Shown here: in pieces, positions 6,353 through 62,210 of the stretch
Numbering within the stretch: the first letter of the stretch is position 1
How the letters are laid out: each line of letters begins with the position of its first letter
Source of the DNA: Planctomycetaceae bacterium
GTDB lineage: Bacteria; Planctomycetota; Planctomycetia; Planctomycetales; Planctomycetaceae
Direction of reading: 5' to 3'
Length of the DNA stretch: 64,000 nucleotides
Assembly: GCA_021732995.1 (NCBI GenBank)
Contig: JAKFWA010000023.1
Coordinates: 62,001-126,000 of the forward strand
Program-made: the position numbers and the translations under genes
The notes under the pieces: model-generated
Seen by the model: only the letters and a program-made list of their open reading frames with translations
Databases searched by the model: none
Told to the model about the DNA's origin: nothing

Positions 6353-8497
6353 CTACTTCGCGTCCGTGTGGCTGGTCAGCCGATCGGACGCGGGGCGAGG
6401 CGAACGCGTCCATTGACGGATGCCGCGTTCGTTGATGGCTCGCAATACAAAGTACCACAGTCCTGCGACGACCAGGCCACCGACGCTCAGACCAAGCCAC
6501 GCGTAGAAGACCAGTTGCTGCTGCATCTCGTAGACAGGCTGCAAAACCGTGGCTTTGCGTTCCTGCACGATCGCGGTCCAGCGGGTCAGACCGACGGGGC
6601 AGAACGACGCCAGCCAGTCGCCGCCAAAGTCATCAGGGCTGATGATTGCCAGCGGATCCTGATAGTCCTCCAGAGAGATCCGTACTTCGCGATCTGTATT
6701 TGGAGTCGATGAACCGCCGGACTTGGCCTGCTCTTCCGCTTCTTCGATGCGCGGGATGATGCTCTCGTCAAGGTGCAGAGCACGGAACTCATCACTGGTC
6801 AGTTCAGCGCGGACCTTGGAGTTCTTCAATCCCGAATGGTCCAGCAGTCGCCAGTTGCGGCGGTCGACGATGGCGATCGTGCGATGAATGCCATCGCGAC
6901 CTCGAATGCTGACTTCGTATTGCGAGAGCAACTGCCCCAGATTCGTCGTGCGGCCGAGCACCGCAATCACGTTTTCCTGCTTGGCGTCCCACACAGGTAC
7001 CGTCATGGCGATGATGTTGGTTTTCGTCACGGCACTCTGGAAAGCCAGTGACAAGTGAGGCTCCATGATGGCCTGAATGCCTTCCGGCACGTGCCCGGGC
7101 TTGTACTCCTTGTCGCGCCCGTGGAAGTAGTCGCGATGCGAGAAGTTGTGATCGATCGTGGCAGGTTCCAGAGGATCGCGCCAGCGCTGAAAGCCCTGAG
7201 CGTCCACCAGCAGCCAGCTCACATCCAGTTCGCGGCCCTGCTCTTTGCGGCGACGATCAACGGTCGACTTCGTGCTTTCCAGGATCTGCTGAAAGTTCTC
7301 GCGGTCACTCCAGCCACGATCTGCGGACGCTGCAATCGCCGCACGTAATTGAGTGTCCGCCGCCACTTCGATGAGTTCATCCATGCGGTCCTGCAGCTCG
7401 CGTTCAACGCTACGTGAGACAATGTTGGCAGACATCACCTGGGCTTCGAACGCACGCTCGGTCAGGTTTTCTTCAGCGGTATCCACCGCACTGTCCATCA
7501 GGTTCTTCGAGAGGAAGAACATGGCGACCAGCAGCAGCCCCGGACCGATGCCTCCCAGTGCCACGAGCGGCCTCAAGCGACGCTGCCGGTCTCGGATATA
7601 CAGCACATCCAGCACAGCCTGAGCATTCGCATAACGCCGATCCGGATTCAGTTGCAAGCAGCGATCCACAATTTCAGCCAGCCGTCGATCGACTCCGCGC
7701 ACGTGATTGTGAGCCGTCGGCCGCGGTGATTCGCGCACCAACTGCTGGTAGATCTTCAGCCGCTCTTCGAGACTCGGAGCTGCGTGCAACCGCGCTTCGG
7801 CTTCGGGCGTACGATAAGGAGGTTCGCCAACCAGCAGGTGATACAGCAGCGCGCCCAGTGCATACACGTCCCATCGGGCATCCGGCACGGCCGCGAGGTC
7901 CGCTTGCTCGGGAGCCATGTAGAACAACGTACCCAGCGCCGGGTTCTGTTCGTTCGACAGACGCGACTGGCCGAAGTCGCACAGACGCGGTTCAAAGTCG
8001 GAGTCGAGCAGCACGTTCGCCGGCTTCAAATCGCAGTGCAGGACGCCTCGACCGTGCGCATGCACCAGCGCCTGGCAGATGGATCGCACGATGCGGATAG
8101 CCTCGTCAACCGGCAGCGGACCGTCCTGCAACATGGCGGACAACGAGCCGTTGTCGAGGTACTCCATCACGTAATACGGCGGGTCATGCTGCCAGCCGAC
8201 ATCGATCAATCGCACGATGTTGCGCGATGTGTAGAGCAGAGCCAACTTTTCGACTTCACGATTCAGCAGCGACCAGTCCAGCCCGCGATGATGCGTATAG
8301 AACTTGATAGCCACCTGCTTGCCCGTCTTGTTCTCGCGCGCCAGCCACACCGCTCCGTAGGCACCTTCGCCGAGCTTCTTCAGAACCTGAAACCCCATCG
8401 CGTGAGGAGCACCCGCGAGCGCCGCCTCGCTCAATCGCCGCGAGCGTTCGGAAGCCTCATCAGTTTGAAAGGGGGTAGCGTCAAGGACGTCGGACAT
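6353..8497 (-). CDS. Membrane-spanning Ser/Thr kinase with extracytoplasmic sensor domain
   Basis: This 714-residue protein begins with a Hanks-type kinase domain (about 36-300): glycine loop GEGAYGAV, catalytic Lys in VAIK (Lys65), catalytic loop HCDLKPAN (near 153) and DFG in LCDFGQ. The loop has HCD rather than HRD, so it lacks the Arg of classical RD kinases and may not need activation-loop phosphorylation. A transmembrane segment (about 315-335) is followed by an extracytoplasmic Cache/CHASE-like region (about 340-670; FSHRDYF is reminiscent of dCache sensors of chemoreceptors and histidine kinases), and a second hydrophobic segment lies near 670-692. The likely role is signal sensing outside the membrane controlling an internal kinase. 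No partner gene is adjacent, so the substrate is unknown. An ATG at 8497 fits the domain start. Confidence 0.9.
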
Positions 8498-23389: not shown

Positions 23390-25741
23390 TTACATGGCGA
23401 ACTGCTTGACGAGTTCTTCCAACTCGCCAGCGATGTCGTGCAGACCATCACCCGCACTACGGGCCAGTTGAGCACCCGTTGAGGTTTCCTTCGCGGCCTT
23501 GTCAACGCGGACCATGTTCTTGCTGATTTCGCGGCAAGCCAGGGCCGATTCGTTGATACCACGCGACACAGACTGCACCGCGGTGGTCGTTTCATGGACC
23601 GTGCGGGCAATCTCCTGCGTCGTCTTCTGTTGCTCGGAGACCGCGTTCGCGATCGAGCTCGACACCGAACTCACGTTGCGAATCACGCCTTCGATCTGAC
23701 CGATCGCCTTGACGGCTTCATTGGTCGATTCCTGAATCGCCTTCACGCGGCGAGCGATGTCGTCCGTCGCGCCAGAAGTTTGCTTGGCGAGTTCCTTCAC
23801 TTCCGTCGCCACAACCGCGAAGCCCTTGCCGGCTTCACCGGCTCGAGCGGCTTCGATCGTCGCGTTCAGGGCCAGCAGGTTGGTCTGCTCGGCAATGTCC
23901 TGGATGACTTCAATCACCTTGCCGATCTCATCAGCCGCCTGGCCAAGCTGAGTAATCTTGGCGTTGCTGACTTCAGTCAGTCGAGCGGCTTCACTGGCAA
24001 CGCCGGCAGCCTTCTCCGCGTTATGAGCGACGTCCGTGATGCTGGCCGTCATCTCTTCGATGGCTGCGGCGACAGATTCAACATTCGCTGTCATCTGCGT
24101 CGTCGAAGACGAAACCGTCGTCATGCTGGCGGTCATCTCTTCCGCAGCCGCCGTCACGGCTGAAGATTGACCAGTAGTCTCATCAGCACCTGACGCAAGT
24201 TGCGTGGCGCTCGATGAAAGCTGGGTGGATGAACTCGACAGCGTCGAAACGTTGCTGGTCAGCTTGCCGATCATGTTTCGCAGGTTGTTGCGCATGTTGT
24301 TCATCGCTTCGATGAGTGCACCAGCCTCGCCGCTGGCCTTTTCATCGCAAGACTGAGACAGATTGCCACTTGCAATCTGGCTGGCGAATTCGGCTGCCTT
24401 GACGATGGGCCGAGTGATCGAGTTCGCGAAGTACACCGCAGTCACGCTGACAACAGCACCCGCAGCCGAAATTAAACTCAACATCCACCAGGTGAGGCTG
24501 GATCGGGCTTCATCCGAGTCAGCTTTCATCTCCGTGGCACCAGCGAGCGCTTCTGCAACATCGACTTTCGTTACGAGGCCCCACTTGTGGCCCAGAACGT
24601 CAATCGGAGTGTACGCAATCATGGCCTGCTGACCGCGGTAGTCCGCTGTCACTTTGATACCAGACTCTTGACGCTCAATCGCTGCCAGCGTGGCTTCCGA
24701 CTTGATCAGCGCTTTCTCCGGGTTTCGGAAGGCGGCGATGACGCTGCGATTCTCCTTGTCGAGATACGAATCGGAACGCGGCAGGTAATCCGCCCCGACC
24801 AGCACTGCTTCGCCGGTGTCACCGAGTCCTTCGCGCTGATTCATGACAGCAGTGACCTGATCCAGAGGAATCTGGAATGCAATGACGCCGACGCGTTTGT
24901 CACCATCGAACAGCGGTGCGGCCAGGAAGCTGGCGGGTGCCTCGTAGGAAGGCGCATATTGCTTGAAATCCACCATCACCGAACTGCCTTTGGGTAGAGC
25001 CCCCGCCTTTCGCCAGGCATCGGCCAGTCCAGAATTCGCATAGGGGCCATCGGACATCTTGGTGCCAAAGTCCAGTTCCTTGAACACCGTGTAGAAGACG
25101 TGTCCGTCATCGGGATCGATCAGGAAGATGTCGTACAAGCCGAATCGTTCGAGATAGTTCCGGAAGACGGGATGGAGTTCCTGATGCGATTTGCTGTAGG
25201 CGCAGTCCACAGCCAGCTTGTCGAGCTTCAACTTCTGCCCCAGCGGATGTGGATTGGCCGCGATGAAATTGCGCTGCATCAACACGCCGAGTTCATCGAC
25301 TTTGCTCAGCGATACATCAGCGCTGAATTCTTTTCCGTTGTTCTGCTTCCGATACTCCGCGGCAAACTCGTTGCGATAGAAGCCCGCGAGTTCGCGACGC
25401 ATCTCTTCGACTTTCTGCTGATCGACGCCGTCCTTCAGCCAACTGTGGGCAGACTCGTCGAGTTCCTGAATGCCATCCACAACGGTTGGGTCTTCAGCCA
25501 GGCTCACAATCAGATTCTTCAACGTGTTGAAGTAAGAGAGCACCTGATACTTCTTCACTTCGCGCAACGCAACAAGTTGAGCTTCATTAGTTTTCGTGAG
25601 AGCGTTCTCACCTTCGGCGCTCACATGCGTCAGGGCCGAGGAAGACTTCTGGTAGTTCACAACTCCAGCAGCCACGAGCGGCACCAGACCGCACGTCAGC
25701 AACACAGCGACGAGTTTGGTTTTGAGTTTCATGTCCTGCAC
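23390..25741 (-). CDS. Methyl-accepting chemotaxis protein with dCache-like sensor
   Basis: The 783-residue receptor has an N-terminal membrane helix ([19 protein letters not shown]), a large periplasmic region (about 35-415) with dCache features ([38 protein letters not shown]), a second helix (about 420-440), a HAMP domain ([20 protein letters not shown]) and a long coiled-coil signalling domain whose hairpin tip reads [24 protein letters not shown]. This is the input of the operon's signalling complex with CheA and CheW. The ligand cannot be told from sequence. Start: GTG at 25741 or ATG at 25732; GAGGG lies just upstream of the GTG. Confidence 0.92.
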
Positions 25742-25861
25742 TTACCCTCAGAAAAAAGTCGATGGGAACGATTTGCAACAGCAGTTCCGAGCAGCGCGAA
25801 AGCGGCACGCTCGGAGTTCCGCGATCCGTGAGTTCGGTTCGCCGGAACGAGTCGTGGTGTT

Positions 25862-26338
25862 TCAAGCAGCAGTCGCTTCATCCTCTGGCTCAGCCACAAC
25901 CGACGTGGCGTTCAGAATGAGCAGCAGGTCGTTTTCCAGCTTGTGAACTCCGCTGAAGAAACGACCGGACAAACCAAGCAGATTTGCGGGAGGAACATCG
26001 ATCTCGTCCGACTTCGCGTGGACGACATCGGCGATGCGATCGACCAGCAAGCCGATTCGCTCCTCACCACAAGACAGAATGATGTTGCGATTCGCCCCGT
26101 CGATGGGACGTCCGGGCAATCCGAAGACCACCCGCAAGTCGATCACAGTGACGACATCACCCCGCAGGTTCACGACTCCGCGTACGCACGGCGGAGCATG
26201 CGGTACGTGAGTGAGTTCGAGGTTACGGTTGATTTCCTGCACCTGCAGGATGTCGATGCCGATGAGGCTGTCGCCTACATAAAACGTCGCAAACTCATGT
26301 TCGGTAACGGTGGCGTTCGCTGGTATCAGGGTAACCAT
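25862..26338 (-). CDS. cheW: Coupling protein CheW
   Basis: The 158-residue protein is a single CheW SH3-like domain: FATFYVGDSLIGIDILQVQEI, THVPHAPPCVRGVVNLRGDVVTVIDLR, then GLLVDRIADVV. It bridges the chemoreceptor tip and the P5 domain of CheA. It lies between cheA and the receptor gene in the minus-strand operon, with gaps of about 110-120 bp on either side. The ribosome site before the ATG is weak. The short acidic tail (AEPEDEATAA) is not part of the domain. Confidence 0.93.
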   Translation of the reverse strand: MVTLIPANATVTEHEFATFYVGDSLIGIDILQVQEINRNLELTHVPHAPPCVRGVVNLRGDVVTVIDLRVVFGLPGRPIDGANRNIILSCGEERIGLLVDRIADVVHAKSDEIDVPPANLLGLSGRFFSGVHKLENDLLLILNATSVVAEPEDEATAA

Positions 26339-26449
26339 GATGGTTCAGGATCCGGATTGGATGGAAAGGATGTCTTCGGTCGCAGTGGGCGCAACGGTTG
26401 CGTTCTCACACTGAGCGTTCAGAGAAATTCAGCCTTGGGACGATCGGCT

Positions 26450-29400
26450 TCAGACCAGTGCGGGCCGCTGGGGGGCATCGGCCCGGCAACTCAGAATCGA
26501 GGTGACGGCCAGGACCAGCTTGTCGCGGTCCAGCTTGATCAGGTACTCGTTGATTCCGATCTGCGTTCCGCGGGTCACATGCTCATCACTCGCCAGCGAG
26601 GTCAGGGCGATCACCGGTAGATGACGGAATCTCAAATCGCCGCGAATCTGCTCGCACAGCTCGAAGCCGTTCATGTTCGGCATCTCGATGTCGGTCACAA
26701 CTCCGGCAAACTGATGACGCTCGCTGCAGAGAATGTTCCAGGCGATCTGGCCGTCTTCCGCCGTAACCACTTCGGCCCCGATCTGCTCGATGAAGCTTTT
26801 GACCTTGTTGCGGAAGAAGGTGGAGTCCTCGGCAAGCAGGACGACAGGTGTCACTTTCGGAGCCGCTTGAGAAGTCGGGCTGTGAACCGCATTGGCGAGC
26901 ATCGCAGGCTGATGAGGTGCCGCGACCACCGGTCCTGACCAGGCGGGACCGGCCGCTGGTGCGGCGGCAACCGCGGGTGTAGCACCGAACCATTCTGGAT
27001 GTGCTCGGCGAGCCAGTTCGTACGTATCAAGGAAGCGCGTCGCCCGCCCATTGATCACCAGAGAACCCAGCACACCGGGTTCAATAAAGGTGCGGGTATC
27101 CAGATTCGACGAGCATTCGAGGATGTCGCAGACTTCAGGCAGAATCAGACCGATTTCTCGCTCACCGGCGTGGAAGACAACAACGAACACGCGGGCCTGT
27201 TCGTCGCGCTGCCTGGCCGCGATGCATTTCTCCAGACTGAGCAGGGTCAGCGTACCGCCGCGATACTGCAGCACTTCCTGTCCACCGACAGAGTCGATCT
27301 GTTCAATTCGCACCCGTTCGATGCGAGCGATGGAACTCATCGGAATCGCGAACTGTTCGGACGGATGATTTGTGAAGATCAAAGTGGAAATGGTTTCCGA
27401 AACGCGATCTTCGGTTTCGTTCTTGGTGTGTTTCGCAGCGGGTTCGCCAACACCCAGTTCGGTATGAACCGCAAGCCCGGTGATGTCGAGGATCAACGCG
27501 ATACCACCATCACCCAGCACGGTCGCCCCCGCGAGGAAGCCGATGTCCTTCATGTGCCGCCCCAGCGGCTTGACGACAATTTCTTCCGAGTCGTGCAGGC
27601 CATCCACAATCAGGCCGAATTTTAGACCGCCGCCTTCCACAACCAGGATATTCGCAGACTCGCCAGCCGCGCCGGTTGCGGTGCTATCGTCCGGCTTCAC
27701 GACGGAACTCAAACGCACCAGAGGCAGTAATACTCCGCGTAGTCGCAGCACTTCGGCATCACGCAAGCGTTCGATGCGTTTGGCCTCATCACCAACACGA
27801 ATGCGGACCAGTTCGCTGATGTTGATCTGCGGTATGGCGAAACGTTGCCCGCAAGACCGCACGATCAACGACGGGATAATCGCCAGTGTGAGCGGCAGGC
27901 GGACGGTAATGGTCGTCCCGCGACCAACGTCGGTTTCGATGTCGATCGAGCCGCCCAGTTTCTCGATGTTCGTCCTCACCACATCCATACCGACGCCGCG
28001 TCCACTGACCGATGTGATCTGCTCGGCGGTTGAGAAGCCCGGCAGGAAGATGAGCTTCAATGCTTCGGCATCGCTCATCGCGTCAACTTTCTCCTGAGTC
28101 AGCAGGCCTTTCTCGACGGCCTTGCGACGCAACTTGCGAGCGTCAATTCCGGCTCCGTCGTCTTCGATGGAAATGTTGACTTTGCCATCTTCGTGGAACG
28201 CTCGCAGATGCACCGTGCCTTGCGCCGGTTTGCGGTTCGCAGTTCGTACTTCCGGCTTCTCAATGCCGTGATCGACGGAGTTGCGGATCAGATGCGTCAG
28301 CGGATCGCCGATCGCTTCGATGATCGTTTTGTCGAGTTCAACTTCCTGACCTTCGATGTTCAGCTGGATCTGCTTGCCAAGCGTATTGCTGAGATCGCGA
28401 ACGACTCGCGTGAACCGATTGAAGACATTGCCAACCGGCTGCATGCGCGTCTGCATGATGGTGTCTTGCAGCTCGCTGGTGACCTGATCGATGCGTGCGC
28501 CGACGGACTCCAGCATCCGCGACTCATGCTGTTCGAGCACCTGCAGCAGTTGATTGCGGCTAAGCACCAGTTCGCCCGCAAGGTTCATCAGTCGATCCAG
28601 CACGGCTACCGCCACGCGGATATTGTTGTCAGTCTTGGATGATTCTGCCGGTGCCGCTGAGGGCTTGGCCGCCATCTTGGATTCTTGAGGTTTCGTTTCT
28701 TCCACCGGGGTCACCATTGGTTTTACAGGAGCCGGTGCGTGAGCAACCGGAGTAGGTACTTGAGGAACGGGAGCGCTGACAGGCGCTACGGGCGCTGCCG
28801 CGGCAACGACTTCGTAACGAGGAGTCGGGACGATGGGTGCCGCGGCCGGGGCTGGCGTTGACACTGGAATCGGAACGGCGGCAACCGGTGCCTTCGCCGG
28901 AACTGGATCCGGGGTAGTTGTCTTCGCGGGTGTTTCTGTGGTCGTGCGGCGGCGGAACTGCCCGGCGGGGGCCGAGTCCGTCAGGATGTAGAGGCTGTTT
29001 GGCGGCAACCGCCAGAAGCGCGCAAACGGCTCAGGCTTCAATACGGTTGCGATCACGACGAGGCACGGGAGTGACGCTGGAGATGACGCGGACAGTTCCC
29101 CCAGAGCTTCTCGCGCAACCTGCGTAGCCAGAATGTCGCCAATGTCAGCCAGACGCTCACCCAGTTCAGACACATTCAAGGACAGGTTGTGGTCCTTGAT
29201 CATGTCGAAATCCATCACGAAGACGGAGCGATCCGCCGCCCACGCCTGCTGCAACTGTTGAAGATCAACAGCCACTGGCAATTCTTCGACGCGGCACGGA
29301 ATGACGAGTGCGTCAGTCGTGGAAGCAGTTTGTGCCGGAGCCGCCACGACCGGTGCCTGCTCGCAGGACGGTGCGGGAGAAGCAGCAACCGACGTCGCTG

Positions 29401-29791
29401 AATCATCCCTGCTGGCGATCTTTCCGAGATCCTGCAGGCAGGTGTCGATGTTGGCTGACTCCGAGTTGTGAACATCGTCAACGAGTGACTTCAGTTGATC
29501 GGCGGCACGCAGCAGCACGTTGATGCGCGACGGAGTCGGCTTCAGTTGCTCGCTGCGCATCAGGTTCAGAATGTTCTCCATCGAGTGCGAGAGTTCGCTG
29601 ATGCGCGAGAGCCCGAGAAAGCCGGCAGCACCTTTGATGGAGTGAATCGCACGGAAGACTTTGTTGACCCGGTCGGTATCAACACGATCCGCGCTGGCTT
29701 CAATAGCCAGGAGATCAGTTTCGATCTCGCCCATTCCTTCACAGGCTTCGATCACAAACTCGTTGATAATCTCTGTGTTCTCTTCAAACAT
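26450..29791 (-). CDS. cheA: Hybrid histidine kinase CheA with second CheW domain and C-terminal receiver
   Basis: This 1113-residue protein contains, in order, an Hpt domain (phospho-His50 in FRAIHSIKGAAGF), an extra domain (about 170-280) not usual in CheA, a Pro/Ala linker (about 290-370), dimerisation and HATPase domains (N box HLIRNSVDHGIEKPEVR, DDGAGID, GRGVGMD), the CheW-like P5 (PSLIVRSCGQRFAIP), a second CheW-like domain (about 810-940) and a receiver (VVLLAEDSTFFRNKV; Asp near 1033 in VVTDIEMPNMNG). In hybrids of this kind, such as FrzE, the receiver takes the place of a free CheY or acts as a phosphate sink. It is preceded by the STAS gene and followed by cheW. AGGA lies 7 nt before the ATG. 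Confidence 0.93.
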   Translation of the reverse strand: MFEENTEIINEFVIEACEGMGEIETDLLAIEASADRVDTDRVNKVFRAIHSIKGAAGFLGLSRISELSHSMENILNLMRSEQLKPTPSRINVLLRAADQLKSLVDDVHNSESANIDTCLQDLGKIASRDDSATSVAASPAPSCEQAPVVAAPAQTASTTDALVIPCRVEELPVAVDLQQLQQAWAADRSVFVMDFDMIKDHNLSLNVSELGERLADIGDILATQVAREALGELSASSPASLPCLVVIATVLKPEPFARFWRLPPNSLYILTDSAPAGQFRRRTTTETPAKTTTPDPVPAKAPVAAVPIPVSTPAPAAAPIVPTPRYEVVAAAAPVAPVSAPVPQVPTPVAHAPAPVKPMVTPVEETKPQESKMAAKPSAAPAESSKTDNNIRVAVAVLDRLMNLAGELVLSRNQLLQVLEQHESRMLESVGARIDQVTSELQDTIMQTRMQPVGNVFNRFTRVVRDLSNTLGKQIQLNIEGQEVELDKTIIEAIGDPLTHLIRNSVDHGIEKPEVRTANRKPAQGTVHLRAFHEDGKVNISIEDDGAGIDARKLRRKAVEKGLLTQEKVDAMSDAEALKLIFLPGFSTAEQITSVSGRGVGMDVVRTNIEKLGGSIDIETDVGRGTTITVRLPLTLAIIPSLIVRSCGQRFAIPQINISELVRIRVGDEAKRIERLRDAEVLRLRGVLLPLVRLSSVVKPDDSTATGAAGESANILVVEGGGLKFGLIVDGLHDSEEIVVKPLGRHMKDIGFLAGATVLGDGGIALILDITGLAVHTELGVGEPAAKHTKNETEDRVSETISTLIFTNHPSEQFAIPMSSIARIERVRIEQIDSVGGQEVLQYRGGTLTLLSLEKCIAARQRDEQARVFVVVFHAGEREIGLILPEVCDILECSSNLDTRTFIEPGVLGSLVINGRATRFLDTYELARRAHPEWFGATPAVAAAPAAGPAWSGPVVAAPHQPAMLANAVHSPTSQAAPKVTPVVLLAEDSTFFRNKVKSFIEQIGAEVVTAEDGQIAWNILCSERHQFAGVVTDIEMPNMNGFELCEQIRGDLRFRHLPVIALTSLASDEHVTRGTQIGINEYLIKLDRDKLVLAVTSILSCRADAPQRPALV

Positions 29792-56292: not shown

Positions 56293-59200
56293 CTACTCTT
56301 GCGGCAAAGAAGGTGTGTTATCCAACGCATAGACGACCACAATTCCCTGTCCTGATGCGTTGATTCCGCAAACGGCGACGGATGGAGACTGCGGGGCAAA
56401 AGCAAGATACTCCCAACGCTCGCCCTCAGAATCCGGCACTCGGATTTCACGCAGTGGAGCGCCGTCAGACGCGTTCCAGAGTGCCAGCGTGCTCTTTCCG
56501 CTGATCGCAGCAATCGCTTTACCGTCTGGGGAGAACGCCACGGGTCGGACAGCGCGCGGGACTCGCCAACTGGCTTCGAGCACACCCCCGGCAGCGTACA
56601 AATTGATCGAACCGCTGGTGATGTCTGTACTCTTGTCGTATTGCATCAAACCGACCGCGATACGCTTGCCGTCGGGCGAGAAGGCGAAACTCAATGGGCT
56701 GCCGCCGCCGAGGTGTCCGTTGGGAATCAGCAGCACCTTCGTGACTTTGGTGTCTACCAGGTCCCAGAGTTTGACTCCCGTGCCGGGCGTGCCCACGCCG
56801 GGATACCAATGACCGGCACTCCCGAAAACAGACCCATCCCGCGAGAACCCGATCTGAACGACCTGGCCGCTGTGTTCATCTTTCAGATCACACATCAGCT
56901 CGCCCGACTTGGCGTCCCAGACTTTGATCAGCCCCGAAGTCGGACCATGTCCCAGACGTCGGACGCCATCCTGCTGATAATCGATCGCTTCGCCGCAAGT
57001 GACCAGCAGGTGGCCGTCCTTTGAGAACGCCAGCGCCCACACGTTGTCGTGGGCCAGCGGCAGCTTCAGGAACTCTGGCAGGAGTTTCTTGTTGCCATCT
57101 TCCGTCACGCGCTCCACGCCGTCGAACGATCGTTTCAACTGCCCTGTGCGTACGTCGAAGAGCTTCACTTGGCCCAGCCTGCTGCCGACGGCCAAGGTGT
57201 TCGAAACAGGGGAGAACGTCAGCGCCATGGCGTCGGTCGATCGCGTGCGGGCGTTTTGAACATCCTTGTTGGCGAGGATGGCTTCCTCATCCGCGGTCAA
57301 GAGCTTCACCGTCGAGACGGCCTTGCCGGTTTGAGCATCGATCAAGCTGACGGTGTCAGGTTCGCCCCCCGTTGCCAGCAGCTTGCCGTCGGGCGAATAG
57401 GCCAGCACAGTGACGCGCTGAGTAGCTTGAACACGAAAGACCTGACGCGGTTCGGCCTCAACCACTTTGTTTGCCGCGCGATTGTCAGCTTGAACGCGAA
57501 GCCGGCGGCCGAAGTTCCACGCCACACCATCGCTGAGGTAGGCATTCGAGTTCGCGTGCTTCACCAGCTTGTAGCGGAACTTCAATCCACGACCGATCCG
57601 CTTGCTGCCACTGACGCCGCGTTCGTCATCAACAATCCCCAAGAGTTCCAGGATGCCGATATCCCCTCGAGATGTCTTGAATAGATAAGTCGCGGGCAAG
57701 TCTTTTACGCCGGGTTCCACTACACCGAACGTGAAGTTCGCATGCTTCATGGAATTCGCGGCGCGTTCAGCCGTCATGGTATCCCACTTCAGGTCCTGAA
57801 GGTCCTGAGTGAAAATGCAGCCTTCGCCGACGAGTTGAATGCCCGAGTTGCTCCCTAACGAAATGTCAGCGCCACCCGCTTCGTAGTCAATGTACTTGCG
57901 GTCGCGTTCGAACTCCTCATCGGTTGTTCCCGGTCCATTTCCGACAACCAGCACTTGCGCGCTGCGGAACTGGAAGTACTGCTGGCAGCATGGCGCGCCA
58001 TAGGGGAGCACTCGTTCGATCACGGGACCGAATTCAAGACCTGGCGGCTTTGGGACCGGAGTCTTGATCGCAGCTTCGGTTCTAGCCAGCGCGTAACGAA
58101 CTGAGACGCCTCGGGGATCCGAACTGAGTCCCGTGATCTGCAAGAGGCCGTGACGTCCCGCCCCGGTCTTGAAGATGTAAGTCGCTGACGACTTTCCGTC
58201 CGAGATCATCGTGTGGCAAGCCTCTTTCCAGTGAGCCTTCACCAGATCGTTCAGCAGCGAGCCGTGCACCTCGTGCCATTGCAGCTCTTTAAGTGGGTAG
58301 GCCGCGAATTGCGGGTCCAGCGACCGTAAGCCACCAGTGCCATCTGCTTCGATGAACGCCGCGACATCCACACCGTTCTTTTCTCGCCATTGCCGGTATT
58401 CCTCGTCAGAGATCTCTTCATCCTTGCGATTCGGAAAAGCATCCTGGGCCGAAAGCGACTTTCCGGTATCGAGGTCGAACCACAAGAATGACGGTGCAGC
58501 GTTTTCCAGAATCAGCTCATTGCGTTCCGGCTCATAACCCGCAGGCAGTTTCGAACCTTTCCCAGACTGAATCACCTTGATCCCCTCATCCCAATCCTTG
58601 GATCGAATGAGCTTGTATCGAATCCGTACGCCGTGCGGTTTTTCGCTGACGCTGACCCGCAGAATGCCACGGCTGTTGCTGGACGTGCGAATGAAATACG
58701 TGCCCGATTTGAATCTCTGTGGTACCTCAAACATCGCCAGTTCCTCGGGGTCGGTGAGGACGGGATCGAGAGCATCACCCTTGGATCTCTTCGGCTTGAA
58801 GTCGTCAGCCAAACGCCAGTTACTCAGGACTTCCTCGGGAGTCGCCGTGTCCCATTTACTGTCTTCGACATCCACGACCAGCATGCGCCAGCCCTGCAGA
58901 CCCTCGTTGGGGCTGAAGCCTGAGAACTCCAGATCCATGCCGGCGTTCAGAGCCCAGTTGAAGATCTTCTTGCGTCCAAGGATCAGCTCTTTGGAACCCG
59001 TCTGCCCCGTCTCCAGATCCAGGAAGGTCGAGGGGTGACTTCCCTTCCCCGGATCCTGAAGAGTCACTTCCACGACTGGAGCAAAACCGGGCTGCGTCTT
59101 CTGCTCAACAGGCAGGAACAGCTTGTATCGAATCTCCACTCCACGAGGCTGATCGTGATATCTGACGATTTGCAGCAGGCCCATGCCGCCCGCCCGAGTG

Positions 59201-61413
59201 CTGAAACCATAAGTCTTCGGTAAGGGGCCTTCGGTACGAATAGAATCCACAGTCGCACGCTTCAAGGCTTCAACCAATTGCTCGGGAGTAATCGCATCCC
59301 ATTGAGCATCCTCCAACGATACTGACCCAAAGCCCGTTTCCCCGGCAGTGCCCAGCCCACCATGGCCCGGCTCTACACCGGCCGAGAAGTCCACATCGGC
59401 CGTGAAGTCTTCACCAGCGAAACCGTCGAAGCTGGTGATTTCGCGATTGGTGTCGATGTCAAACCAGGGCCATGGCGCCTGATTGTTCGCACGGATCAAA
59501 CGCTCCTGAACCGGACCGAAGGCACGAGTGCCCGCACGATGTTCTGCCCAGGCCTGAGTTGCCCGCAACTTCACTTCGGCGGTGTTGATCTCACTCAGAG
59601 CGATGTTGAACTCGCGGTTGGAAAGCTCGCCAGACTTATGCTGCGCAATGCTCAGTTCATGCTTAACCCACGCGACTTTGAAGCTCGCGATCTCGGCCTT
59701 CAAGGCATCCACTCGCGCTGTTTTTATGCGGAACTCTGCTGTGGATGTATCATGGAACCATGCATCTTGAGCCTGCAGTTTCTCCAATGCCGCTTCCGAT
59801 TTCTCAAGCTGCAACTTCGGCATGAGCGCCATTCGATACGAGACGTTCGGCGGCGAACCTTTGGCTGCCTTTGCGGGACCTCGAGTCCACGCGAGGTCTG
59901 AGAGATGCGGCGTCGACGGATTGATTTTCGAATCGGAACTGGTGGTCCAGCCGCCTCGGATTTCTTCACCCACCGTCCGCACGGAGATCTCCCCGGAACG
60001 CGCATCCCCCTCGCGCCAGGTGCCGTTGTAACGCCGTTCGATCCGCGACCATTTGAGTTGGATCTCACCCTTCTCTTTACCGAACGTGTCGCTGTAGGTG
60101 CCGGTGTATTCGTTGTCGTTGACCTTCTTCAGAACGACCTGCCCCCACTCATCGCCGGACCATTCGCCTGCAATCTCGGGTGGCTGCGTGCCCAGCATAA
60201 ACACTATCAGTGCGCTGATTCCCAGGAATGCCAGCAGTTCGAAGAACCCCTGGCGAGTCGCCAGTCGCGACCACCAGTGACGATGAGGCGGCTTGATCAG
60301 CATCGCGGGCAGTGGCGATGTCGCAGGCTGCTGCAGGTGCGCGAGGCATTGCTCCAGCAGATCGCTAACTTCCTGCGCCGAGCTGAAGCGCCGCGCGCGA
60401 TCTTTCTCCAACAGGCGATCCACGATGGAGATGAACCATGGCGGCAATTCAGGATTGAGCGAACCCAATGCTTGCGGCGCCTCATCAACGACTCGTCGCA
60501 CAGTGGCGATGGTGGAGTTCGCTCGGAACGGAGAAACGCCGCTGGCCATTTCGTAGAGCACGCTGCCGAGACTGAAAAGATCCGAGCGGGCATCGAGTTG
60601 TTCACCGCGCGCTTGCTCGGGTGACATATACTGAGGCGTCCCCGCGATGCCGCCTTGAGTGAGCGTGGCGTCATCAGCCGCTCGCGCCAGACCGAAGTCG
60701 GTCAGCACCGCGCGCTCCACGCCCTTTTCTAGAAGAATGTTCGCGGGCTTCACGTCGCGATGCACCAGACCTTGCTCATGCGCCGCCGCAAGACCAGCCG
60801 CCGCCTGCATGCCAATGCGCAGGATCTCTTTCAGCTCCAATGCACCTTGCGCCGCCAGCCTTTGAGCCAATGATTCTCCCGCAACGAGCGGCATCACCAG
60901 GAACGGCAAACGACCGCTGGCCTGCACCTGATGGATGGCCAGCACGTTGGGATGCACGACCGCAGCCGCAGCTTGTGCCTCGCGAGCGAACCGCTTCTTC
61001 GCCAACGAACTTTGAGCCAGATGCGGCGCGAGCACTTTGATCGCCACGCACCGCTTGAGTTCCTTATCGAAGCCTTTCAGCACGACACCCATGCCGCCGC
61101 GACCGACGATCTCCAACACGTCATAGCCGCCGAGGCGACCGAGCACGTTGGGCTCATCTGACGGTTCAAGGTGCTCGACGGTGAAGTCGATGTCCGACCA
61201 TTCTTCGCGCGGCGGCAGCGTCGCATCCAGTTCATCAGACGCGAGCAACTTCGCCGCCTCGCGGCACCATTCTGCTCCGCCCGCCATGCGTTCCAGAGTC
61301 GCACTGCATTCCGCGCACTCTTCCAGATGCTGGTGCAACGCGGCTTCTTTATCTGTTGGCAGCCCCCCCGCTAACGCAGATTCCAGCAGAGCCACTGAGC
61401 ATTGAGGGTTCAT
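56293..61413 (-). CDS. Giant Ser/Thr kinase: anti-sigma zinc finger, kinase, TM, four novel repeat modules, WD40 propeller
   Basis: The 1706-residue protein has, in order, an N-terminal zinc-finger like zf-HC2 (Cys5, His29, Cys33, Cys36), a Hanks-type kinase (about 97-365; GRGGMGVV, Lys126, HRDVKPAN with Asp220, Asp239 of DFG), one transmembrane helix (about 395-415), a short beta-rich section and a helical stretch (about 530-630), four repeats (about 636-1285), then seven WD40 blades (about 1335-1706; each ending in the SPDGK/VxLFD style). The repeats contain WDxxT, YxFKT, GILQI, and PRGVxIRYKL elements. The ECF sigma factor gene ends inside its start by 4 bp, so translation is coupled, and the zinc finger suggests it binds that sigma factor. 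The kinase probably controls release. No ribosome site is needed beyond the coupled one. Confidence 0.88.
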   Translation of the reverse strand: MNPQCSVALLESALAGGLPTDKEAALHQHLEECAECSATLERMAGGAEWCREAAKLLASDELDATLPPREEWSDIDFTVEHLEPSDEPNVLGRLGGYDVLEIVGRGGMGVVLKGFDKELKRCVAIKVLAPHLAQSSLAKKRFAREAQAAAAVVHPNVLAIHQVQASGRLPFLVMPLVAGESLAQRLAAQGALELKEILRIGMQAAAGLAAAHEQGLVHRDVKPANILLEKGVERAVLTDFGLARAADDATLTQGGIAGTPQYMSPEQARGEQLDARSDLFSLGSVLYEMASGVSPFRANSTIATVRRVVDEAPQALGSLNPELPPWFISIVDRLLEKDRARRFSSAQEVSDLLEQCLAHLQQPATSPLPAMLIKPPHRHWWSRLATRQGFFELLAFLGISALIVFMLGTQPPEIAGEWSGDEWGQVVLKKVNDNEYTGTYSDTFGKEKGEIQLKWSRIERRYNGTWREGDARSGEISVRTVGEEIRGGWTTSSDSKINPSTPHLSDLAWTRGPAKAAKGSPPNVSYRMALMPKLQLEKSEAALEKLQAQDAWFHDTSTAEFRIKTARVDALKAEIASFKVAWVKHELSIAQHKSGELSNREFNIALSEINTAEVKLRATQAWAEHRAGTRAFGPVQERLIRANNQAPWPWFDIDTNREITSFDGFAGEDFTADVDFSAGVEPGHGGLGTAGETGFGSVSLEDAQWDAITPEQLVEALKRATVDSIRTEGPLPKTYGFSTRAGGMGLLQIVRYHDQPRGVEIRYKLFLPVEQKTQPGFAPVVEVTLQDPGKGSHPSTFLDLETGQTGSKELILGRKKIFNWALNAGMDLEFSGFSPNEGLQGWRMLVVDVEDSKWDTATPEEVLSNWRLADDFKPKRSKGDALDPVLTDPEELAMFEVPQRFKSGTYFIRTSSNSRGILRVSVSEKPHGVRIRYKLIRSKDWDEGIKVIQSGKGSKLPAGYEPERNELILENAAPSFLWFDLDTGKSLSAQDAFPNRKDEEISDEEYRQWREKNGVDVAAFIEADGTGGLRSLDPQFAAYPLKELQWHEVHGSLLNDLVKAHWKEACHTMISDGKSSATYIFKTGAGRHGLLQITGLSSDPRGVSVRYALARTEAAIKTPVPKPPGLEFGPVIERVLPYGAPCCQQYFQFRSAQVLVVGNGPGTTDEEFERDRKYIDYEAGGADISLGSNSGIQLVGEGCIFTQDLQDLKWDTMTAERAANSMKHANFTFGVVEPGVKDLPATYLFKTSRGDIGILELLGIVDDERGVSGSKRIGRGLKFRYKLVKHANSNAYLSDGVAWNFGRRLRVQADNRAANKVVEAEPRQVFRVQATQRVTVLAYSPDGKLLATGGEPDTVSLIDAQTGKAVSTVKLLTADEEAILANKDVQNARTRSTDAMALTFSPVSNTLAVGSRLGQVKLFDVRTGQLKRSFDGVERVTEDGNKKLLPEFLKLPLAHDNVWALAFSKDGHLLVTCGEAIDYQQDGVRRLGHGPTSGLIKVWDAKSGELMCDLKDEHSGQVVQIGFSRDGSVFGSAGHWYPGVGTPGTGVKLWDLVDTKVTKVLLIPNGHLGGGSPLSFAFSPDGKRIAVGLMQYDKSTDITSGSINLYAAGGVLEASWRVPRAVRPVAFSPDGKAIAAISGKSTLALWNASDGAPLREIRVPDSEGERWEYLAFAPQSPSVAVCGINASGQGIVVVYALDNTPSLPQE

Positions 61414-62009
61414 GTGAGCTTCTCCAATTCATTCACCGCAGCCTGTAGCCGGACCAGTACGCGACACTTGGCGACTCGAACCGCCCCCACCTGCATGCCG
61501 AGTTTCTGAGCGGCTTCGGCGGGAGAAGTTCCCAACACGCCGGTTTCCCAGAAGGCTTGCCAAGTGGTGGCCTGAACTTCGCGCTGCACTCGTTCGGCAG
61601 CTTGATGGAACAACACTCGCCGCAGTTCCTGATCGAACTCAGCAGTCTCGGCCGCCGCATCTTCCGGCAGTTGATCCAGCATGAGTTGCAGTTCAGACCC
61701 GCCAGCCGCGGTGACTCGCCGATCGCGTTGCTTCAGCCAGTTGATGACCAGGTTGCGAGCCACTCGTCGCAGCCAACCGCGAAACGACCCGCGTTCTTTG
61801 GCGGGATCCCAGCGGTCGATGCTGCGACTTACGGCCATGAAGAGTTCCTGCATGACTTCGCGAGCATCCGCGTCCTGCAGTCCATGCCGTCGCAACAACC
61901 GAAAAGCCACAGGCTCATACAGCGACACAAACTCAACCCACGCCTCGTGATCCTGCGAATCACGCAGCCGCAACAGCAGGCTGGCACGGGTCGTTGGTGA
62001 TTGTGTCAT
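61410..62009 (-). CDS. ECF sigma factor linked to the giant kinase
   Basis: The 199-residue protein has sigma70 regions 2 and 4: region 2 includes EFVSLYEPVAFRLLRRHGL, DAREVMQELFMAVSRSIDRWDP and FRGWLRRVARNLVINWLKQR (the -10 recognition helix), and region 4 includes the helix-turn-helix TSPAEAAQKLGMQVGAVRVAKCRVLVRL. Length and layout fit ECF sigma factors. Planctomycetes have several ECF groups located next to Ser/Thr kinases, and this fits. AGGA lies 7 nt before the ATG. Its stop overlaps the kinase start (ATGA). Upstream are a TGTAAC (reverse complement of 62050-62055) and TATAC (near 62025) that might form an auto-promoter. Confidence 0.92.
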   Translation of the reverse strand: MTQSPTTRASLLLRLRDSQDHEAWVEFVSLYEPVAFRLLRRHGLQDADAREVMQELFMAVSRSIDRWDPAKERGSFRGWLRRVARNLVINWLKQRDRRVTAAGGSELQLMLDQLPEDAAAETAEFDQELRRVLFHQAAERVQREVQATTWQAFWETGVLGTSPAEAAQKLGMQVGAVRVAKCRVLVRLQAAVNELEKLT

Positions 62010-62130: not shown

Positions 62131-62210
62131 CCACGGAGAGCACAGAGAACAGATTCGCCTGGGAACCTCTGTGTTCTCTGAGCCTCTGTGTTCTCTGAGC
62201 CTCTGTGTTT
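62131..62210. repeat. Tandem 17-bp repeat with inverted partner
   Basis: The unit CCTCTGTGTTCTCTGAG is repeated at 62166-62182 and 62183-62199 with a partial third copy to 62210. Just before, 62131-62152 (CCACGGAGAGCACAGAGAAC...) is its approximate inverse. Similar CTCTGTGTTCTCTG arrays are scattered through many environmental bacterial genomes. It lies about 80 bp upstream of the plus-strand propeller gene. Confidence 0.75.

Follow-up and report, generated by a model that had tools for sequence, protein, structure and literature searches.

An ECF sigma factor gene overlapping that of a zinc-finger Ser/Thr kinase with predicted HmuY-like outer repeats: a candidate one-chain anti-sigma factor and kinase in a planctomycete

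Organisation of the locus

The 64,000-nucleotide stretch analysed here (the window) derives from a Planctomycetaceae bacterium (positions 62,001 to 126,000 of contig JAKFWA010000023.1, assembly GCA_021732995.1) and carries, on its minus strand, an extracytoplasmic function (ECF) sigma factor gene followed by the gene for a very large membrane kinase; the coordinates of both genes and of their parts refer to that strand. The sigma factor (61410..62009, 199 amino acids) comprises region 2, which matched the Pfam family Sigma70_r2 with an E value of 3.7e-13, and region 4_2, the match of which was slightly below the cut-off. The second gene (56293..61413), defined by its open reading frame and by domain searches, encodes a protein of 1706 amino acids with, in this order, a zf-HC2 zinc finger, a Ser/Thr kinase, a transmembrane helix, a barrel, four repeats and a WD40 propeller. 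The two frames share the tetranucleotide ATGA at 61410..61413, confirming the 4-bp overlap between sigma stop and kinase start described in an initial annotation of the window.

The Hanks-type kinase domain (residues 97-347, 60373..61125) matched Pfam Pkinase with an E value of 1.4e-45. The glycine loop GRGGMG (G104-G109), the VAIK lysine K126, the HRD motif (H218-D220) and the DFG motif (D239-G241) are all intact and, by these motifs, the domain looks active. A single transmembrane helix was predicted at residues 389-409 (60187..60249), with positive charges on its N-terminal, kinase-bearing side. Finger, kinase, one helix and outer array thus occur in one membrane-crossing chain, as originally proposed, and the alignment and the Pfam searches likewise recovered the four repeats and the propeller beyond the helix. 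All of the parts named in the initial annotation were present, but it had overlooked a separate eight-stranded barrel at residues 411-515. The linker between barrel and repeats (residues ~530-630, 59524..59826) has no Pfam family, and its helical character was read from the sequence only.

The GC content and the GC content at third codon positions were uniform along the whole gene, and a recent chimera produced by insertion was rejected on this ground. The host genome measures 9.39 Mb and contains well over 70 kinase-like reading frames among the matches listed.

The N-terminal zinc finger

The finger occupies residues 5-36 of the kinase protein (61306..61401). The Pfam model zf-HC2 matched residues 8-36 with an E value of 1.6e-4 and 22.2 bits, which is exactly the curated gathering cut-off. 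When 15 N-termini drawn from the zf-kinases of the host genome and of its relatives were aligned, the C, H, C, C pattern formed by Cys5, His29, Cys33 and Cys36, the very positions first assigned as zinc ligands, provided the sole invariant columns. A profile of the zf-kinase N-terminus was searched against all PDB sequences and the significant matches were anti-sigma factors only, namely DdvA (1.9e-8, also matched within a longer CHAT-domain chain), RsiW (8.5e-5), ChrR (7e-4) and chain B of entry 3hug (4e-3), deposited as a conserved membrane protein, which we take to be RslA; the next entries exceeded 0.2. Zinc-binding anti-sigma domains of class I are recognised by an Hx3Cx2C signature (PMC7406223), which the finger also has. 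On account of the PDB profile matches and of this signature, the N-terminal finger is, as judged from its sequence, a member of the anti-sigma fold family. Its anti-sigma nature, suggested from the start, was therefore borne out by the zf-HC2 match and the PDB profile, and the finger would be expected to bind the adjacent sigma factor.

The class I (zf-HC2/ZAS) anti-sigma factors ChrR, RsiW, RslA and DdvA share with the window protein an Hx3Cx2C finger with an upstream Cys and an adjoining ECF gene, and RsiW and RslA also a single transmembrane helix followed by a C-terminal outer part. Unlike them, the window protein inserts a full Hanks kinase between finger and helix and displays an exterior of about 1300 amino acids made of barrel, repeats and propeller.

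Conservation of the sigma-kinase pair

A search with residues 1-128 gathered 29 relatives, 25 of which are clearly preceded by an immediately adjacent ECF gene in the same orientation, in agreement with the conserved adjacency initially proposed. In the other four the neighbour was doubtful (L123), the gene began too close to the end of the stretch (L124, L131), or there was no ECF gene (L139). Within the closest clade, consisting of the window gene, its own paralogue L051 and L112-L118, the ATGA overlap was present in 9/9 loci, and it also occurred in L196. Conserved pairing and overlap hold over loci that are approximately 60-70% identical. Homologous loci with sigma and kinase genes apart, named beforehand as the observation that would count against the proposal, were encountered solely among more distant paralogues (L053, L058 and L065). 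Strong ECF adjacency thus characterises this subfamily but does not extend to finger-kinases as a whole.

As zf-kinases without adjoining ECF genes do exist, the finger might be a relic or a dimerisation or scaffold element of a kinase that has other targets, the sigma pairing reflecting co-expression only. The invariant zinc ligands and the pairing and overlap maintained across loci of such divergence argue against this explanation, which we regard as quite improbable.

Variants of the arrangement were also observed. In the host genome, one ECF gene is followed by two successive zf-HC2 kinases, the second starting with its own finger (L061, G000:C1:52500-60000), and at another zf-HC2 kinase the ECF gene lies not before but after the kinase gene, the end of which it overlaps (L068, G000:C53:40000-46500). 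At L040 (G011:C124), the sigma gene that precedes a barrel-bearing zf-kinase is itself split over two frames, by a frameshift or an assembly error.

Region 2.2 of the sigma factor and phosphorylation

In EcfP-type sigma factors the acidic DAED motif is missing and phosphorylation supplies the charge (PMC8999054). Among the 45 cognate sigma factors of the subfamily, region 2.2 was acidic at position 4 in every case (45/45) and carried Asp at position 1 in 41/45; in the window sigma factor, the DAED position reads DARE. Since acidic region 2.2 is kept, the same logic (PMC8999054) implies that this sigma factor should be able to bind the polymerase alone, unlike EcfP, and would be active unless restrained. 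Activation of the EcfP type was rejected, as the defining motif, loss of the acidic residues with Ser/Thr replacement in region 2.2, was absent and DAxD/E was retained.

The conservation of T7 (invariant, 45/45) and S10 (43/45) in the cognate sigma factors leaves room for a phosphorylation layer. EcfK is activated also at sites outside region 2.2 (PMC13147305), and the ECF groups linked to Ser/Thr kinases have been proposed to work by phosphorylation (PMC8999054). These data, together with the Hanks kinase gene adjoining the sigma gene, would fit a system of the EcfP/PknT or EcfK/PknS type, in which the kinase phosphorylates and thereby activates the sigma factor and the finger merely recruits it as a substrate. 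We consider this alternative unlikely, given that the EcfP hallmark is missing and that a finger of anti-sigma type, absent from EcfP systems, is present here.

The comparison with described systems gave the same picture. As in ECF43/EcfP, a Hanks kinase gene adjoins the sigma gene, whereas EcfP has no acidic residues in region 2.2 and no co-encoded anti-sigma factor; here, DARE is kept and a zf-HC2 domain with a putative inhibitory role resides inside the kinase. The planctomycetal ECF groups associated with Ser/Thr kinases (ECF59, 61, 62, 217 and 283, with EcfP/ECF43 as the studied example) likewise have the ECF gene beside the kinase gene (PMC8999054); the window kinase differs in that it carries an anti-sigma-type finger itself.

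The juxtamembrane barrel

Residues 411-515 (59869..60183), which directly follow the helix outside the membrane, had no Pfam match. The domain was detected in 15/298 genomes of the class, located directly after the transmembrane helix of ECF-paired finger-kinases and, once, in a fusion of an ECF sigma factor to a transmembrane helix (L165). The AlphaFold2 (AF2) model contained eight strands, with a predicted local distance difference test (pLDDT) score of 86, and its nearest folds were designed barrels and avidin/streptavidin (Z 10.8-12.8). The domain is predicted to be an eight-stranded antiparallel barrel of the avidin/calycin fold class, a resemblance of fold that does not in itself point to biotin binding.

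The outer repeats

The four repeats R1 (residues 634-767, 59113..59514), R2 (778-936, 58606..59082), R3 (958-1110, 58084..58542) and R4 (1127-1284, 57562..58035) align over residues 634-1284 with 14 invariant columns, and R4 alone as query recovered R1 (E 1.5e-7) and R3 (E 8e-4); the resemblance is therefore more than chance. No model of Pfam, NCBIfam or PHROG covers them. The R4 single query had suggested a repeat confined to the host genome, an idea abandoned when a wider profile matched 19/170 genomes of the host family.

By profile searches, other proteins of Planctomycetota, and also proteins of Verrucomicrobiota, were seen to contain the domain. It was found on M56/BlaR1-type proteases (L046/L086, Pfam E 2.1e-25; also L082-L084 and L090, and L197, L198, L202 and L204, where the protease was judged from sequence), in a fusion of ECF sigma factor, transmembrane helix and repeat with Pfam-confirmed sigma regions (L049, G577:C53), and in exported TPR, PEGA and HEAT-like proteins with partner domains assigned from the sequence (L045, L047-L048, L085, L094, L199-L201, L205-L207). 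Many verrucomicrobial kinases with an N-terminal zinc ribbon carry it as well, and in 7/12 of those with sufficient upstream sequence an ECF gene preceded the kinase gene, separated from it by 36 to 613 nucleotides. These kinases resemble the window protein in having a zinc-binding N-terminus, a kinase, a transmembrane segment and one to four repeats, and differ from it in the unrelated zinc ribbon that replaces zf-HC2, in the ECF type and in the mostly several transmembrane helices. The outer architecture, which the initial annotation could not place, thus contains an undescribed domain widespread in signalling proteins of Planctomycetota and Verrucomicrobiota, and a second protein of the same kind, L196, is described below.

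Two further arrangements of these modules were recorded. L049, with the repeat, and L165 (G092:C1), with the barrel, are ECF sigma factors joined to the module via a transmembrane helix, that is, one-component membrane sigma factors. At L047 (G583:C100) and L048 (G604:C94), the gene of an exported repeat protein, which includes a PEGA-like segment, diverges from an adjoining ECF-kinase pair on the other strand, a divided form of the same set of parts.

The AF2 model of R3, calculated with 29 aligned sequences, reached a pLDDT of 91.3 and a predicted template modelling (pTM) score of 0.85. Its best structural matches were 4ei0 (DUF4466, Z 10.7), 3h8t (HmuY, Z 10.6, root-mean-square deviation 2.7 over 124 residues), 6r2h (PinO, Z 10.5), 8b6a (Z 10.4) and 6eu8 (Tfo, Z 8.9). 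In all, eight HmuY-like entries scored Z 8.9-10.7 over 123-137 residues, the next unrelated match having Z 3.6, and Foldseek placed the same group on top, weakly (E 4e-3 to 0.5). The repeat is thus predicted to have the fold of the hemophore HmuY. When the members of the repeat family were compared with PF14064, the best E value was 0.1, in 1/29 members and without significance; the PF14064 search of whole genomes found no match anywhere, controls included, and was hence uninformative.

The repeats share this predicted fold with the HmuY-like hemophores (HmuY, PinO, Tfo, BfrB; DUF4466), but they are arranged in tandem within signalling proteins, have no significant sequence match to them and lack a conserved His/Met column. 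No His or Cys column was conserved in the repeats, and Met occurred in at most 8/29 members, so that heme ligation of the HmuY type was ruled out as a family-wide feature. As the heme ligands vary within HmuY too (PMC6200708), heme binding by single repeat copies is possible by analogy.

From the modelled fold and the context, a ligand-binding role of the repeats is plausible. The repeats and the propeller might instead be structural or adhesive, serving surface anchoring or assembly without sensing, an account that concerns the exterior only and is compatible with either cytoplasmic mechanism. The occurrence of the repeat in kinase-free exported proteins (L199-L201, L205-L207) and the lack of a conserved His/Met/Cys ligand column would favour it. 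The repeat is joined again and again to three signalling outputs, kinase, M56 protease and sigma factor, which argues for an input role, and we place the structural account somewhat on the unlikely side.

A second case, the propeller and module exchange

The C-terminal WD40-type propeller (residues ~1320-1700, 56314..57456) was identified by Pfam, and related propellers terminate L174, L175, L169 and L196. The last of these, from another genus of the same family, combines an ECF gene, the ATGA overlap, a zf-HC2 kinase, a transmembrane helix, one repeat and a WD40 propeller that is 33% identical to that of the window over 394 amino acids; the architecture therefore does not stand alone. In the kinase tree, where module labels are incomplete for loci known as short stretches only, L196 fell outside the fully supported clade containing the window gene. 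Within that clade the exteriors all differed: the paralogue L051 has EF-hand-like segments, L173 several transmembrane helices, L172 other modules, L174 the barrel with another domain and WD40, and L175 the barrel with HEAT-like repeats and WD40. Constancy of sigma factor, finger and kinase with exchange of the exterior is the pattern expected of sensors with a common output, and the exterior was indeed the variable part among paralogues.

Membrane Ser/Thr kinases described from Planctomycetota, with WD40/TPR arrays in the periplasm, resemble the window protein in their cytoplasmic kinase, single transmembrane helix and predicted periplasmic WD40 domain at the C-terminus (PMC11032199); the passages of that paper that were searched revealed no mention of the finger, the barrel or the four HmuY-like repeats.

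Other features of the window

The sigma gene and a PQQ-propeller gene diverge from a common spacer, which contains 2.6 copies of the 17-nucleotide tandem repeat CCTCTGTGTTCTCTGAG (62166-62209) and, close by, an inverted copy. The window has 4 exact or near copies of GAGAACACAGAG, against 0.46 expected. Related sites lie at 62136-62147 and 29771-29782. The minus strand also encodes a separate Ser/Thr kinase of 714 amino acids outside this system (6353-8497, Pkinase 3e-48) and, at 23390-29791, a chemotaxis receptor (Cache-HAMP-MCP) adjoining a CheA-type kinase with CheW and receiver domains.

Discussion

We lean towards the view that the locus encodes a sigma factor and a one-chain transmembrane anti-sigma factor and kinase with exchangeable outer sensors, and judge it slightly better than even. 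The steps that we infer are the binding of the sigma factor and its inhibitory sign, the release under control of the kinase and the sensing of a ligand. The overlapping genes would lead to joint production of the sigma factor and its partner, and the cytoplasmic class I-type finger would dock the ECF sigma factor at the membrane, away from RNA polymerase. An outer signal might then switch the Hanks kinase through the single transmembrane helix and the barrel, which is shared by part of the family and would be a coupler, while the four HmuY-like repeats and the propeller could act as input modules for a small ligand, a polymer or a protein partner. Phosphorylation of the finger, the linker or the sigma factor may finally loosen or tighten the hold on the latter, with either sign conceivable. 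Phosphorylation of an anti-sigma factor by the Ser/Thr kinase PknB frees an ECF sigma factor (PMC8999054; for SigH/RshA also PMC13147305) and, by this precedent, the window protein would unite the anti-sigma and kinase activities in one chain.

Some observations weigh against this view. The host genome encodes zf-kinases without a neighbouring ECF gene (L053, L058, L065) and a second ECF-kinase type without the finger (L052, L055, L056), so that the finger does not always go with the pairing, nor the pairing with the finger. Moreover, the finger could be a substrate docking site instead of an inhibitor, and no ligand residue was identified.

Planctomycetal ECF-kinase pairs and WD40 domains outside membrane kinases were already known (PMC8999054, PMC11032199, PMC8567305). 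No description of an anti-sigma finger within such kinases, or of the repeat domain, was found in the literature searched, which did not cover the main ECF classification paper. More generally, and tentatively, since we rate this somewhat short of even, planctomycetes may have joined a Hanks kinase to an anti-sigma domain of class I, giving a one-chain sensor that merges sequestration with kinase signalling and is tuned by swapping outer ligand-binding modules, including a HmuY-like domain also borne by BlaR1-type proteases and sigma factors of Planctomycetota and Verrucomicrobiota.

Kinase-paired ECF sigma factors of planctomycetes are usually filed as phosphorylation-activated and devoid of an anti-sigma factor, whereas a large subset here has an anti-sigma-type finger in the kinase. 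The regulatory logic, restraint and release versus recruitment and phosphorylation, becomes testable, and the module swaps found in nature can serve as controls. Three kinds of membrane signalling output share the repeat, the ligand of which would reveal the inputs of many uncharacterised systems in both phyla.
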